Source of the DNA: a virus | Strand: one strand, 5' to 3' | DNA length: 47,162 nt | Virus record (IMG/VR): IMGVR_UViG_3300034106_005358 | Span: 1 to 47,162 of that record | Shown: positions 10,248-38,659 of the stretch, piece by piece | Position numbering within the stretch: the stretch's first letter is position 1 | Layout: every line of letters starts with the position of its first letter | Program-made: the position numbers and the translations under genes | The notes under the pieces: model-generated | The model's database searches: none | What the model was told of the DNA's origin: nothing | Seen by the model: only the letters and a program-made list of their open reading frames with translations

Positions 10248-10754
10248 ATGAAACGATTTTATCAATTAAAGCAAAACCTAGTCGAATCCGAATACGCAGA
10301 CGGTGGTGGTTTTAACGCAGCTTATGACGGAACCACCAGCAGATCCGCAGCCAGCGATTATGGTATTCATCGCATAGAGAACGAAACCCAAAGAAATAGA
10401 CTTAACGCATTCCTGCAAACCTTTGCCCAGAAGGATTATCTTGATCCTCGTTCGGCATTGGCTCTCCTTCGTGCAAAGATCAATCTTGCCGGTCTGGACT
10501 TCCAATTCAATCCGAATGTCCCGATTTTGACCGATGCCGAGATTCGATTCCCAATGACAAGATTCGGTGGTACTTTCGGAACTAGTCCGACCCACGATCT
10601 ATCCAAGGGCTTCCTTGAAACTGATGGTATCTCAGATGCCACCGGTGGCATGGGCTTGGATCTTGTTCTTACTATTGTTCGAAATGGGGCCAATGGTCTC
10701 TTCAAATTCAATATTCGAATGGAAGAGGTCGCAAGGGGAGGCGAAGAAGATTAA
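10248..10754 (+). CDS. Putative virion protein with capsid-targeting-like start
   Basis: 168 residues, family not recognised. The start MKRFYQLKQNLVESE resembles that of the 3296 gene (MKRF...) and offers an LxE site, LVE (11-13), before S14. The following part is Gly/Ser/Thr-rich (YADGGGFNAAYDGTTSRSA). A predicted globular segment comes after it, with NRLNAFLQTFAQKDYLDPRS and a C-terminal beta-like region (FKFNIRMEEV). A similar overall layout is seen in small cyanophage structural proteins. Late promoter and AAGAGG ribosome site are close upstream. The virion role is inferred from the start motif and promoter only. Confidence 0.55.
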   Translation: MKRFYQLKQNLVESEYADGGGFNAAYDGTTSRSAASDYGIHRIENETQRNRLNAFLQTFAQKDYLDPRSALALLRAKINLAGLDFQFNPNVPILTDAEIRFPMTRFGGTFGTSPTHDLSKGFLETDGISDATGGMGLDLVLTIVRNGANGLFKFNIRMEEVARGGEED

Positions 10755-10756
10755 TT

Positions 10757-11140
10757 GTGAATCATCGGGAGCCTTTGACGCAGGATAATTTCCTGCTTTT
10801 TGCCATGAAATTCTATGATAATCCTGCATGCAAAGGCATGGAGGAATTCATGGAAGATTTGGAACGAATCAAATACATAAAAAGGCTCCTCAATAAGTTT
10901 GAAAAAAAGGATTCTCTGAAAGAACGGCTGATATTAAATCATATAATAATATTGAATAATGTTTTCGGTGCTGAAGCCTGTTCGAGAATCCTTTTCTTCA
11001 AACTAGAACCGGAATATCATTCATGTCTGAAATCATTCCTCAAATACCTTCAGATTCTTCCACACAAAATTCCGGAAACAGACTTAGATTCGATACCTTC
11101 GGATCACAGGGTGGACATGATTCTCAGGTCAATTCGCTGA
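10757..11140 (+). CDS. Conserved T4-like hypothetical protein, GTG start
   Basis: 127 residues from a GTG two bases after the preceding stop. Motifs REPLTQDNFLLFAMKFYDNP, ERIKYIKRLLNKFE and ERLILNHIIILNNVFG form an all-helical protein that I recognise as a widespread conserved protein of cyanophage-type T4 relatives with no assigned function. Its 3' end overlaps the next gene by 118 bases in another frame, an unusually long overlap. Residues up to about 95 match the remembered family pattern; the rest lies in the overlap. Probably expressed from the late promoter at 10224. Confidence 0.65.
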   Translation: MNHREPLTQDNFLLFAMKFYDNPACKGMEEFMEDLERIKYIKRLLNKFEKKDSLKERLILNHIIILNNVFGAEACSRILFFKLEPEYHSCLKSFLKYLQILPHKIPETDLDSIPSDHRVDMILRSIR

Positions 11141-11643
11141 ACGAATCCTTTGCCGGGATCGTAACCTCCTTCACTGTTTACAAGTTAATGTCTGAGGTCA
11201 TCAAGCCGTTCACGGCTATGAAAGCGTATCAAGCCGGTCTAATCGATGCAAACGGTAATCTTCTCAAAACAGAAGCGGAACTGGTTGGACAGGAAAAGTC
11301 TATATTGACTCCTTTCGTTCGACTAGTCATCGGAATCAAAAGATTAGTTCAAGCTCTGCCCGCAAACCGTCTCAAAGCGGATTTTGGTTATATCCAGACT
11401 GCGGCAAGAGCCATGGCGTTTGAGTGTGCCGAAGTGGGTGGAGATCAAGAACTCTTCCTAGAGGAGCTTCAGAAGTCTCTGGATGTCCTTTTAGAAGAAG
11501 GGGAGGCTGCGGCAAGCGGTCCCGGGAACGCTATTGGAGGGGGATTCCTCAATCCACAGGTCGGTGAACCCAACCCTGCTTTGGCTGGATTCAGTCCCCC
11601 CATGGCTTTACTCAGAAGAAAAATAAAGAAAGTGAAAAAATGA
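11023..11643 (+). CDS. Conserved structural-type protein carrying a copy of the capsid-protein N-arm
   Basis: 206 residues. Residues 45-130 (SFTVYKLMSEVIKPFTAMKA, then YQAGLIDANGNLL and IGIKRLVQALPANRLKADFG) match a family common in T4-like cyanophages, of unknown function. The C-terminal tail is unusual: residues 168-192 align without gaps to residues 57-81 of the major capsid protein at 37181, 18 of 25 identical by hand count, including FLNPQVG and ALAG. A basic tail LLRRKIKKVKK follows. The ATG at 11023 lies inside the preceding gene; GGA nine bases upstream is a modest ribosome site. A later start would remove the overlap but also conserved-looking sequence. It may bind the capsid-protein partner surface or derive from partial gene duplication. 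Confidence 0.65.
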   Translation: MSEIIPQIPSDSSTQNSGNRLRFDTFGSQGGHDSQVNSLNESFAGIVTSFTVYKLMSEVIKPFTAMKAYQAGLIDANGNLLKTEAELVGQEKSILTPFVRLVIGIKRLVQALPANRLKADFGYIQTAARAMAFECAEVGGDQELFLEELQKSLDVLLEEGEAAASGPGNAIGGGFLNPQVGEPNPALAGFSPPMALLRRKIKKVKK

Positions 11644-12467
11644 GAAACCTTTTAATTTCGTTTTTGTTGTTTATTGTTCTTGCTTCATGCAAATCCGCAC
11701 CAAATACCCTTCCTGTTACTCCGATCGGAACGACCACCCCTCCCCATTTACAAGCCGTCCTTGAGGATATTCGAGAAGAATCAGATTCCATAGACCAAGA
11801 TGCAAAGGTGATAATCGAGGAAACTAAAGCCATTCCTGATGTAAAAGTGGCAGGAAATATCAATTCAAAAGCAGAAAATATTATAGAATCTTCAGATTCA
11901 ATTAAGAAAGAAAATGCAAAATTGGCTGTCGTAATTGATGAAGTAAAAAAGAATGAGGATGAACTGGCGAAATTGAAAGATCTCATCAATTCAAACCGTC
12001 TTCAAGCACTTGAAAAGCTTTACGGTTATGTTACCATGTTTTGGGTCCTTGGATTTGCCGCAATCGTGGGGGGAGCGGTAGTTGCTTTTTTATTAGGAAA
12101 TCGAATTTTTGGCTCTTCGATCATGATGATTGGAATAATGATGGTAGGATTCGCTGCAGCAAGCCAATATTATATGGAAGAAATCGCAAAGGTAGGCGGT
12201 ATAATTTTAGTGATTTCGTTCATTGGAGGGATCGCCTATTTGATATGGGGAATTTACAGGGCAAACACCGTATCTCTCGCGGTAAAAGAAATAGTCGAAA
12301 TGATGGAAATTCTCAAGGAAACGATGACAGACGACGAAAAAGAAAGAATATTCGGCGAAAAGGGTCTGGCATCTCGACTACAGTCAGAGATAACTCAAAA
12401 AGTGGTAGCCAAAATAAAAGAAAAAAACGGGCTAAGAAAACTTGAGGATATCAAACCTCAGTCTTGA
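11640..12467 (+). CDS. Phage lipoprotein with periplasmic helix and three membrane spans
   Basis: 275 residues. A lipoprotein signal (hydrophobic 4-14, lipobox LASC with Cys17) is followed by a Pro/Thr stretch and a charged helical region (35-125, coiled-coil-like). Three hydrophobic spans come next at about 131-153, 157-178 and 184-206, with a cytoplasm-like charged helix at the end (TDDEKERIFGEKGLASRLQS). A lipoprotein that returns to the membrane several times is uncommon. Possible roles are lysis control, superinfection exclusion or host-envelope remodelling; none is shown. The ATG overlaps the previous stop as ATGA. Its 3' end overlaps the convergent resolvase gene by 17 bases. Confidence 0.65.
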   Translation: MRNLLISFLLFIVLASCKSAPNTLPVTPIGTTTPPHLQAVLEDIREESDSIDQDAKVIIEETKAIPDVKVAGNINSKAENIIESSDSIKKENAKLAVVIDEVKKNEDELAKLKDLINSNRLQALEKLYGYVTMFWVLGFAAIVGGAVVAFLLGNRIFGSSIMMIGIMMVGFAAASQYYMEEIAKVGGIILVISFIGGIAYLIWGIYRANTVSLAVKEIVEMMEILKETMTDDEKERIFGEKGLASRLQSEITQKVVAKIKEKNGLRKLEDIKPQS

Positions 12468-13011
12468 TCTTCTCGTAAAGATACTTGCAGACATAATAAG
12501 AGTCCACAATATCTGATACCGGACTAACACACTCTTTTCTTCCGGGTGTGAAATAAAACATCAAATCAACGCCGGTTTCTCTGTAAAAGGCAGCATGCAT
12601 TTCGTCTTTGGTGGCGTTTCCTTTTCCGGTAGCCAGTTTTTTGACGGCTGAGGGCTGTGCGATTTCTAGGGGAGTTTGAGTCTGGAAAATCTTGTATTTT
12701 AAAATACCTGTATTTTCGGCGATGTGGAAAACCTTACCCTTGGCCCCGAAAGCGTATCCTTCTATGCAAATCTGATCGATTCCCCTCAAATACTTCATCG
12801 CCCAGTCTGAAATCGTATCAAATCTCATGTAATCGCCGCTGTAGTACGCAAATTCCTCACCTTTGATGTTCTTGAGAATCGGCTCTGTGTACTTTTTTCG
12901 ATCTGTCAGGTAATAAAAGCGACAGTGATTGTAGTTGAAACCCCCGGTCGTACCATTGAATACACAGATAGCCGGGCATGTCATGCTATAATCTATACCA
13001 GCGATCACCAT
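12451..13011 (-). CDS. RuvC-like Holliday-junction resolvase (RNase H fold)
   Basis: 186 residues on the minus strand. GIDYSMTCPAICV carries D7, ICIEGYAFGAKGKVF carries E84, PSAVKKLATGKGNATKDEM is the RuvC-type basic segment, and SDIVDSYYV supplies D167/D170. These are the four acidic positions of RuvC-family resolvases. It probably resolves branched DNA before packaging, the job done by gp49 (endonuclease VII) in T4; no gp49 is visible in this window. The start at 13011 gives a clean GIDYS N-terminus. The gene stands alone against the flow of its neighbours and converges on the lipoprotein gene with overlapping ends. No convincing promoter was found for it. Confidence 0.8.
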   Translation of the reverse strand: MVIAGIDYSMTCPAICVFNGTTGGFNYNHCRFYYLTDRKKYTEPILKNIKGEEFAYYSGDYMRFDTISDWAMKYLRGIDQICIEGYAFGAKGKVFHIAENTGILKYKIFQTQTPLEIAQPSAVKKLATGKGNATKDEMHAAFYRETGVDLMFYFTPGRKECVSPVSDIVDSYYVCKYLYEKIKTEV

Positions 13012-35483: not shown

Positions 35484-36143
35484 ATGAAACTAATCACAGA
35501 AATGAATGAGGACATTACCTTCGTGACCGAAGCGGTCGAGGGCGGAAAGAAAAAGTACGCCATCGAAGGTGTCTTCATGCAATCTGAAACCGTTAACAGA
35601 AACGGTAGAGTTTACCCCAGACCGATTCTTGAGGCTGAAGTTGATCGCTACAGCAAGAAATATGTCAAGGAAAATCGTGCTCTTGGTGAACTAAACCATC
35701 CTTCAGGTCCAACCGTAAACCTCGATAAAGTTTCCCATCTCATCACAGACCTCCGTATGGAAGGAAAAGATGTCATTGGAAAGGCAAAGCTTCTGGAAAC
35801 CCCCTGTGGTCAGATTGCACAAAGCCTTATCGAGTCTGGGGTTAAACTGGGTGTTTCTTCTCGTGGTATGGGAAGCCTGAAAGAAAATCGTGGCTACAAG
35901 GAAGTCCAAAAGGACTTCATGTTAGCTGCAGTCGATATCGTCGCCGATCCCTCTGCCCCGAACGCTTTCGTCAATGGAATCATGGAAGGCGTTGAATGGG
36001 TCTGGGAAAACGGCATTCTCAAACAAGAAGTAGTTGAAAGTTATCAAAATAAGATCAAAAGAACCCCAAGTGCAGAACTCCAAGAGGCTGCAGTGAGTGT
36101 TTTTGAAGATTTTATGCGTAGACTTTCAAAAGGTAAAAAATAA
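35484..36143 (+). CDS. gp21: Prohead maturation protease gp21
   Basis: 219 residues (T4: 212). YAIEGVFMQSETVNRNGRVY and YP open the protease domain. GELNHPSGP gives the catalytic His (H72), and GVSSRGMGSL the catalytic Ser (S125/S126). VDIVADPSAP is the conserved block after it. gp21 cuts scaffold, core, internal and capsid proteins at (L/I)xE sites, which fits the LxE sites noted in several proteins of this window. AAAGG is a good ribosome site; the gene lies 2 bases after the core protein stop. Confidence 0.95.
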   Translation: MKLITEMNEDITFVTEAVEGGKKKYAIEGVFMQSETVNRNGRVYPRPILEAEVDRYSKKYVKENRALGELNHPSGPTVNLDKVSHLITDLRMEGKDVIGKAKLLETPCGQIAQSLIESGVKLGVSSRGMGSLKENRGYKEVQKDFMLAAVDIVADPSAPNAFVNGIMEGVEWVWENGILKQEVVESYQNKIKRTPSAELQEAAVSVFEDFMRRLSKGKK

Positions 36144-37180: not shown

Positions 37181-38659
37181 ATGGACTTCGCAGATACTAC
37201 ACCATACGACACTCTAGTCGAAAAATGGGAGCCCGTGCTCGATCACGACGCTCTCCCCAACATCGGTGATTATCACCGTAAGCGTTGCACCGCCGTTCTC
37301 CTTGAGAACCAAGAGAAGGCTCTCAAGGAACAATTCCTTGCCGAATACGGCAATGAAATGGGTGGCGCATTCCTCAATCCGCAAGTTGGCTCAGCAAACA
37401 ACGCTCTCGCTGGTTACAGCCCCGTGCTCATCAGCCTCGTTCGTCGTGCAATGCCTAACCTGATCGCCTATGATGTTGCAGGCGTTCAGCCAATGACTGC
37501 TCCGACCGGACTCATCTTCGCGATGCGTTCACGCTACGGCAAGCAAACCGACTTCACCGCCGGTCAAAGCGTTACCGATGGCGTTCTCAGCAATCGTCAG
37601 AAGAATGAAGCTCTCTTCCAACAGCCCTACTCACCGTTCTCGGGTCGTGGTAACTGCTACGGCGATACCAGCCTCGGTGGAATCAGTGGTGCTGCAATCT
37701 ACGAGAACCAGAACCTTGATCCGTTCCTCGTTCGTGGTCTCACCAACGGTTCACTCGGTAACACCTTCCAGGGTCAACTTGCCAACTGGGAATCATTCCG
37801 TGGCATGCTTACCTCCGAAGCTGAACAACTCGGCGTTGGAACCAAGAACTTCCAAGAGATGTCATTCACCATCGAGAGACTTGCTGTCGAAGCTCGTAGC
37901 CGTGCTCTCAAGGCTGAATACACCACTGAGCTCGCTCAGGACCTCAAGGCTGTTCACGGTCTCGATGCTGAAACCGAACTCGCGAACATTCTCTCACAAG
38001 AGATTCTTCACGAAATCAACCGCGAAGTTCTCAACCAAATCTACCGCTCAGCCAAGCAAGGTGGTAAGTCACCAGACCTCAAGACTGCTGGTACTTACGA
38101 TCTTATCTTCGACTCAGACGGTCGTTGGTCTGCCGAACGCTTCCGTGGTCTCATGTTCCAGCTTGAGCGTGAAGCCAATGTCATCGCCAAGGAAACTCGT
38201 CGTGGTAAGGGTAACTTCGTAATCTGCTCAAGCGATGTGGCTTCTGCACTCGCCATGGGTGGATACCTCAACATCAGCCCGGCTCTCAATGTCAACCTCG
38301 AAGTTGACGATACCGGAAATGTCTTCGCTGGTGTGCTCAACGGCAAGTTCCGTGTGTTCATCGATCCCTATGCACCAACCGGCGTTAACTTCGCTCTCGT
38401 TGGTTACAAGGGTCAAGTGGCTTACGATGCGGGTCTCTTCTACTGCCCGTATGTTCCGCTACAGATGTTCCGCTCAGTCGGTCAAGACACCTTCCAGCCG
38501 AAGATTGGCTTCAAGACCCGCTACGGCATGGTCGCCAACCCCTTCGCTGAGGATGTCAACCTGAACAATGTTGGTACTGCTACCACCGGTAATCAGTACT
38601 ACCGCTTGCTCAAGATCGACAACCTCCACGGTATGGGTCTCACCGGCATGATTGCCTGA
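37181..38659 (+). CDS. gp23: Major capsid protein gp23
   Basis: 492 residues (T4: 521). The N-terminal 55 residues are a removable propiece. QFLAE (51-55) followed by YGNEMGG is a likely gp21 cut, which would leave a mature chain starting at Y56. GGAFLNPQVG, VAGVQPMTAPTGLIFAMRSR and YRSAKQGGK-type blocks identify the HK97-fold gp23 of cyanophage-like T4 relatives. A strong ribosome site AAAGGAG and high-expression codon use (CTC, CGT/CGC, AAC; about 52% GC at 38161-38220) fit the most abundant late protein. Residues 57-81 are copied in the 11023 gene. A strong terminator follows. Confidence 0.97.
   Translation: MDFADTTPYDTLVEKWEPVLDHDALPNIGDYHRKRCTAVLLENQEKALKEQFLAEYGNEMGGAFLNPQVGSANNALAGYSPVLISLVRRAMPNLIAYDVAGVQPMTAPTGLIFAMRSRYGKQTDFTAGQSVTDGVLSNRQKNEALFQQPYSPFSGRGNCYGDTSLGGISGAAIYENQNLDPFLVRGLTNGSLGNTFQGQLANWESFRGMLTSEAEQLGVGTKNFQEMSFTIERLAVEARSRALKAEYTTELAQDLKAVHGLDAETELANILSQEILHEINREVLNQIYRSAKQGGKSPDLKTAGTYDLIFDSDGRWSAERFRGLMFQLEREANVIAKETRRGKGNFVICSSDVASALAMGGYLNISPALNVNLEVDDTGNVFAGVLNGKFRVFIDPYAPTGVNFALVGYKGQVAYDAGLFYCPYVPLQMFRSVGQDTFQPKIGFKTRYGMVANPFAEDVNLNNVGTATTGNQYYRLLKIDNLHGMGLTGMIA

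Follow-up and report, generated by a model that had tools for sequence, protein, structure and literature searches.

The N-fist is the mature N-terminus (residues 66-91) of the major capsid protein gp23 of bacteriophage T4. Within the prohead, before expansion, this segment is disordered; as the head expands, the fist forms, shifts to the outer surface and bridges and locks neighboring capsomers, touching two subunits of its own capsomer together with two subunits of the adjacent capsomer (PMC9958956, PMC7136217). N-fists have been described for gp23, not for gp24, and those of the five portal-facing gp23 subunits are disordered (PMC9958956, PMC7136217). Entry of a protein into the T4 head requires nothing beyond a 10-residue capsid-targeting sequence (CTS), which suffices for targeting and is removed by gp21. 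Gene 61.1 of T4 encodes a hypothetical protein (phrog_1823 / phrog_2086) of 54 residues, MKTFKEFIKEDMVAGDSGGNPENISIGTTSGAVVNKGPEQIPKKKKEESKEKEE, and adjoins the primase gene 61 among replication genes, beside 61.2 (adfA, anti-DarTG) and near tifA (61.4) and dmd. No function of this protein is described in the literature that we searched, searches for 61.1 in virions or in knock-out screens returned nothing relevant, and the main text of a T4 head proteomics paper does not mention it.

In the viral DNA stretch of 47,162 nucleotides analyzed here (hereinafter, the window), a protein of 206 amino acids (11023..11643, + strand) carries a close copy of the N-fist region of the gp23 encoded by the same genome. 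Residues 168-192 of this protein, GNAIGGGFLNPQVGEPNPALAGFSP (11524..11598, + strand), align without gaps to residues 57-81 of gp23, GNEMGGAFLNPQVGSANNALAGYSP (37349..37423, + strand), with 18 of the 25 residues identical, exactly as the original prediction stated. The gp23 gene (37181..38659, + strand) matches the Pfam family Gp23 (PF07068, 3e-134) and phrog_138 (4.8e-144), and its imitated segment is the counterpart of the T4 gp23 N-fist as defined previously (PMC9958956, PMC7136217). When the gp23 arm was compared, using the Smith-Waterman algorithm, with all 670 six-frame open reading frames of the window, gp23 itself scored 195, the 11023 frame 104 and the next best frame 35; the score of the 11023 tail was reached by none of 1000 shuffled tails (z = 16.5). 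A weak likeness continues beyond the 25-residue match (SPPMALLRRK / SPVLISLVRRA). Within the window, the NP[QE]VG pattern is confined to the 11023 protein and gp23. The nearest relative of the 11023 protein is 69% identical to it and has the same tail, which is matched by the gp23 arm of its own phage.

In gp23, the imitated segment begins directly past the predicted gp21 cleavage site LAE|Y56 (residues 53-55; 37337..37345, + strand; read from the sequence), and a gp21-type prohead protease is encoded in the window (35484..36143, + strand; PF03420, Peptidase_S77, 4.6e-40). The 11023 protein itself contains a possible gp21 site, LLE|E (residues 156-158; 11488..11496, + strand; likewise read from the sequence), that ends 9 residues ahead of the mimic, and a hydrophobic-x-E motif is found at the same place in many homologues; in Straboviridae, the spacing is mostly that of gp23. 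The earlier claim that it is the very start of mature gp23 that is imitated agrees with the wider data; the Straboviridae tails imitate the mature N-terminus. The imitated sequence is found in two different settings: in gp23, it becomes the N-terminus after gp21 cleavage, whereas in the smaller protein a short basic stretch, RRKIKKVKK (11614..11640, + strand), comes after it in place of a capsid fold. Most homologues also have a basic tail after the mimic. A Pfam search detected no HK97-type capsid domain in the 11023 protein, which has the arm alone in common with gp23.

The original prediction took the carrier to be a conserved phage protein, and it indeed belongs to the T4 61.1 family, which is found in hundreds of phages. 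The 11023 protein matches phrog_18642 (4.9e-13) and phrog_2086 (3.5e-12) and contains a conserved N-domain (residues 46-130; 11158..11412, + strand) that is present in a single copy per genome wherever it occurs. A profile of this domain, in which the window protein is one of the rows, matches the latter at 5.3e-26 and detects a single copy apiece in seven genomes or genome fragments (the window, phiM19, HTVC008M, Astolliot, DLP6, Melnitz and ORM20), and none in T4 and the cyanophage S-PM2. In tblastn searches, the window query (E up to 1) yielded homologues in 491 phage records, including Acj61 61.1, nt-1 61.1 and KVP40, and the phiM19 query in 601 phage records; in an alignment scan of IMG/VR, a marine branch was represented by at least 313 relatives. 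Related modules are present in phages of Pelagibacter, Methylophilales, Rhizobiales and enterobacteria. Both the N-domain profile and the gp23-arm-like tail with its basic end place the window protein in the 61.1 family, although the tail is not universal in that family. In Straboviridae, 61.1 adjoins or is close to primase gene 61, whereas the window gene is preceded by a DUF7207 gene and followed by a different gene (11640-12467); the primase neighbor being typical of Straboviridae, we did not take it as defining the family. A search of solved structures found no relatives of the 11023 protein, and the viral Foldseek matches to its predicted structure were uncharacterized proteins; the AlphaFold model (10 sequences) shows a helical N-domain, at moderate confidence, and an unstructured tail (mean pLDDT 57). 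Some 61.1 homologues are annotated 'major capsid protein', so that annotation had already met the likeness to gp23; the label is misleading because only the arm is common with gp23, and the mimicry explains its appearance on several small-protein records.

T4 61.1 resembles the window protein in its gp23-like tail followed by basic residues, and phrog_2086 matches both, but it lacks the N-domain and starts instead with a CTS-like sequence, MKTFKEFIKE; conversely, the window protein has the N-domain and no N-terminal CTS. A search of all T4 open reading frames with the CTS pattern retrieved 61.1, two proteins that start with MKTYQEFIAE (internal proteins II and III) and one unrelated gene. The two internal proteins share with 61.1 the 10-residue start, the end of 61.1 being lysine-rich, but contain no gp23-like segment, which the scan of the whole T4 genome found in 61.1 only. 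Upstream of 61.1, sequences resembling late promoters (TATAAATA, with one mismatch at most) were found at 10 sites in 17 Straboviridae loci, compared to about 2.4 expected, five of them at -23/-24; these genomes being related and AT-rich, the excess is suggestive only.

The tails of 61.1 proteins differ between phage lineages. In 17 Straboviridae-type homologues and T4, the tail is of the type E-x-MVAGDSGG..IASG.TSGAVTNKGP, followed by basic residues; its counterpart in Straboviridae gp23 is E|AEIGGDHGYNATNIAAGQTSGAVTQIGP, and in most of these homologues the spacing from E to GD is the same in the tail and in gp23 (E|AEIGGD). The tails of Emdodecavirus and ORM_20 imitate a different gp23 sequence, namely, that of their own phage: AVPSTNTGNI in phiM19, compared to AAPTTNTGNI in its gp23, and PTTSTGGIAGYD in ORM20, compared to PTTVTGGIAKWD; likewise, OLIVR5 has PTTSTAGIA in the tail and PTTQTGGIA in gp23. 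In whole-genome scans, the best non-capsid match to the phage's own gp23 arm was the 61.1 homologue in the window, T4 (69 versus 39 for the next match), phiM19 (48 versus 41) and ORM20 (46 versus 41). In DLP6, 61.1 was not among the top matches to the gp23 arm in the genome scan, the likeness (APTN..G..NI) being judged by eye, and the tail/arm pairs of DLP6, I1_18, L058 and ZZ01 scored barely above shuffles. Furthermore, several non-Straboviridae carriers have the E without L or I two residues ahead, and the match to the L/I-x-E site is poor in ORM20, OLIVR5, HTVC008M gp143 and Melnitz_30.

Homologues without the tail, which count in part against the original prediction, do exist. The scan of the Astolliot genome found the N-domain and no mimic, and the scan of S-PM2 found neither, so the function is dispensable in some T4-like phages. 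In the marine phages Melnitz and HTVC008M, 61.1 similarly has the N-domain and lacks the gp23-like tail, but a gene near 61.1 encodes a weaker segment of this kind. Melnitz_30 contains EDAPANASGSAV (core APANASGSAV), compared to EAAPTNSTGSAV in gp23, and its score of 37 is the best non-self match, against a background of 33-36. In HTVC008M, gp143 contains IANVAGDGAV, compared to IANVTGSAV in gp23; its score of 34 is within the background, and it is a candidate by virtue of its position near 61.1 and its MKTFTDF start. A protein from Rhizobium phage RHph_I1_18 (L072 41-1204) combines the 61.1 N-domain with a protein-kinase-like domain (phrog_15752, 1.9e-11); a second kinase-annotated gene is located downstream, and both of the genes that follow have, by eye, CTS-like starts.

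The original prediction had offered duplication of a part of gp23 as one explanation of the likeness. Among the identical tail/gp23 residues of 12 phage pairs, the same codon was used 74 times, compared to 80.5 expected under random synonymous choice; synonymous sites are thus saturated, and a recent duplication or gene conversion is rejected. The likeness is either old and maintained at the protein level or convergent, and the randomness of codons at shared residues implies selection on the protein. If a gp23 fragment had been fused to the 61.1 protein long ago and had since drifted neutrally, this would account for the shortness of the copies and for the near-noise likeness in ZZ01, DLP6, L058 and I1_18. 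We nevertheless regard such a relic as the least probable of the explanations considered here: separate lineages imitate different gp23 sequences, and randomization of synonymous positions, with about 50-80% of the residues kept identical, excludes drift in the clear cases. Between lineages, the tail follows the gp23 of the same phage: for eight lineages, chosen by the N-domain alone, the total for own-gp23 pairing was reached by 51 of 40,320 re-pairings (p = 0.0013), although with the window and T4 removed (six lineages left) p rises to 0.07. The tracking is weak within the marine family (13 pairs, with tail and arm stretches delimited by hand; p = 0.014, or 0.019 without near-duplicates), where the tails have a conserved core of their own, AGSGxIAGIGVGxxGEPG, and it was not seen within Straboviridae, where the best match is usually to a gp23 other than the phage's own.

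Two features that the original prediction missed, along with the identity of the carrier and of the N-fist, are the gp21-like site ahead of the copy in most carriers and the capsid-targeting-like beginning of T4 61.1; they suggest that the protein is internal to the head and processed, not a decoration of its outer surface. The role of a docking peptide, the other explanation in the original prediction, fits the wider data. The reading that we prefer, and to which we would give somewhat less than an even chance, is that 61.1-type proteins are prohead core proteins that are cut by gp21 and yield a fragment for docking at the N-fist positions within the shell. From the motifs described above, we infer that the N-terminal part of the protein (the N-domain in most phages, the 10-residue CTS-like sequence in T4) would carry it into the prohead, the N-domain presumably being the targeting counterpart of the T4 start, and that gp21 probably cuts it at the hydrophobic-x-E site, as in gp23. 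The basic fragment left by this cleavage would start with the copied N-fist. When the N-fists of gp23 leave the interior during expansion and lock neighboring capsomers, the 61.1 fragment might dock in sites that gp23 leaves unfilled, and its basic tail possibly touches DNA. Both the docking site and its effect are hypothetical. Against this reading stand the location of T4 61.1 among replication genes and near anti-defense genes, its absence from the main text of the head proteomics paper, the uneven tracking of gp23, the near-shuffle scores of some pairs, the phages that have no mimic and the carriers with a poor cut site. Because N-fists are described for gp23 and not for gp24, and are disordered at the portal, sites adjacent to the portal vertex and, where gp24 pentamers are present, to these pentamers may lack an incoming N-fist; in phages that have just one gp23-type gene (phiM19, ZZ01, Y68, AF3, HTVC008M, Melnitz and DLP6), only the portal vertex would be left with vacant sites. 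More narrowly, it is conceivable, if doubtful, that such proteins are dedicated N-fist donors, that is, protease-released peptides or proteins that plug, next to pentamers or at the portal vertex, lattice sites for which the capsid protein has no locking segment to offer; other internal proteins (HTVC008M gp143, Melnitz_30 and the kinase-like fusion in I1_18) may be anchored by this tag as well.

Several alternatives assign the tail a different partner. The protein could act before maturation as a regulator of assembly, with the N-domain and tail binding the scaffold, gp21 or gp23, for instance, to set the time of gp21 cleavage as a pseudo-substrate, the fragment having no role in the finished shell. 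This scheme is compatible with the joint imitation of the possible cut site and of what follows it, with the capsid-targeting-like beginning of T4 61.1 and with the status of the T4 internal proteins as gp21 substrates in the literature. We nonetheless judge it unlikely: the imitation spans the N-fist and ends about 25 residues beyond the cut, farther than a cut site alone should demand, and the internal proteins that start with this CTS are devoid of such an arm, 61.1 being the only T4 protein found to have one. The location of T4 61.1 in an island of anti-toxin genes, beside 61.2 and near dmd and tifA, and the published cases of defense systems triggered by capsid proteins suggest instead an anti-defense decoy, the tail of which occupies a host sensor of the capsid protein, in the manner of Lit/EF-Tu with the Gol peptide or of CapRel, and thereby shields the phage. 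We consider this quite improbable, given the occurrence of related modules across phages of such different hosts; the position past a possible prohead cut site and the CTS-like start point to the head, and the Gol peptide, we presume, lies just after the imitated part of gp23. Slightly less probable still is a helper of folding or trafficking, in which the tail and the gp23 N-terminus vie for a chaperone, for example, gp31-GroEL or gp40: T4 61.1 lies only a few genes from gene 40, which encodes a head vertex assembly chaperone, but the literature searched yielded no chaperone in contact with the N-fist, and the cut site and CTS-like start would be left unexplained.

A literature search, which covered few subscription journals, found no description of mimicry of gp23 by 61.1. 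Processed internal head proteins are already known; a copy of the N-fist on such a protein is new. The preferred reading, of a processed core protein with a docking fragment, gives T4 gene 61.1 a concrete, testable role, suggests that T4-like phages, marine ones included, encode a class of processed head proteins, and offers a way in which the lattice could be closed at symmetry-breaking vertices.

In the window, 61.1 is preceded by a DUF7207 gene (10757..11140, + strand; PF23837, 4.6e-39), the usual upstream neighbor of 61.1 outside Straboviridae; look-alikes of this gene were recognized by reading beside 61.1 in phiM19, ZZ01, HTVC008M, Melnitz and L068. The start of the window 61.1 (11023-11140) overlaps the DUF7207 gene by 118 bases, an overlap of the same kind is seen in its nearest relative (L001), and no ATG, GTG or TTG start was found near the border of the N-domain. 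Further upstream is a possible core protein (10248..10754, + strand) with a CTS-like start, MKRFYQLKQNLVESEY, which falls outside the CTS pattern used for T4; by eye, in an unscored comparison, it resembles Melnitz_27. The protein encoded at 9300-9917 matches phrog_12788 (6.5e-8), a family also matched by HTVC008M gp143, and a RuvC-like resolvase gene (12451-13011, - strand; phrog_159, 6.2e-34) is on the opposite strand to its neighbors. In other phages, three proteins of about 140 amino acids from Aeromonas and Vibrio phages (W15:C1:45952-46047, - strand; W19:C1:168430-168540; W28:C1:222621-222746, - strand; L154, L155 and L156, respectively) have C-termini that resemble the next stretch of gp23, for example, RLAPKLIADEICGVQPMSEHTSKIYTLRV compared to RRAIPQLIAFDICGVQPMTSSTGQVFTLR, and so represent a second kind of gp23 mimic; we take this stretch to be near the Gol region. 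Finally, KVP40 (W03:C1:36321-37145) and nt-1 (W08:C1:201296-202135) each encode a third, divergent gp23/gp24-like capsid protein of about 300 residues.
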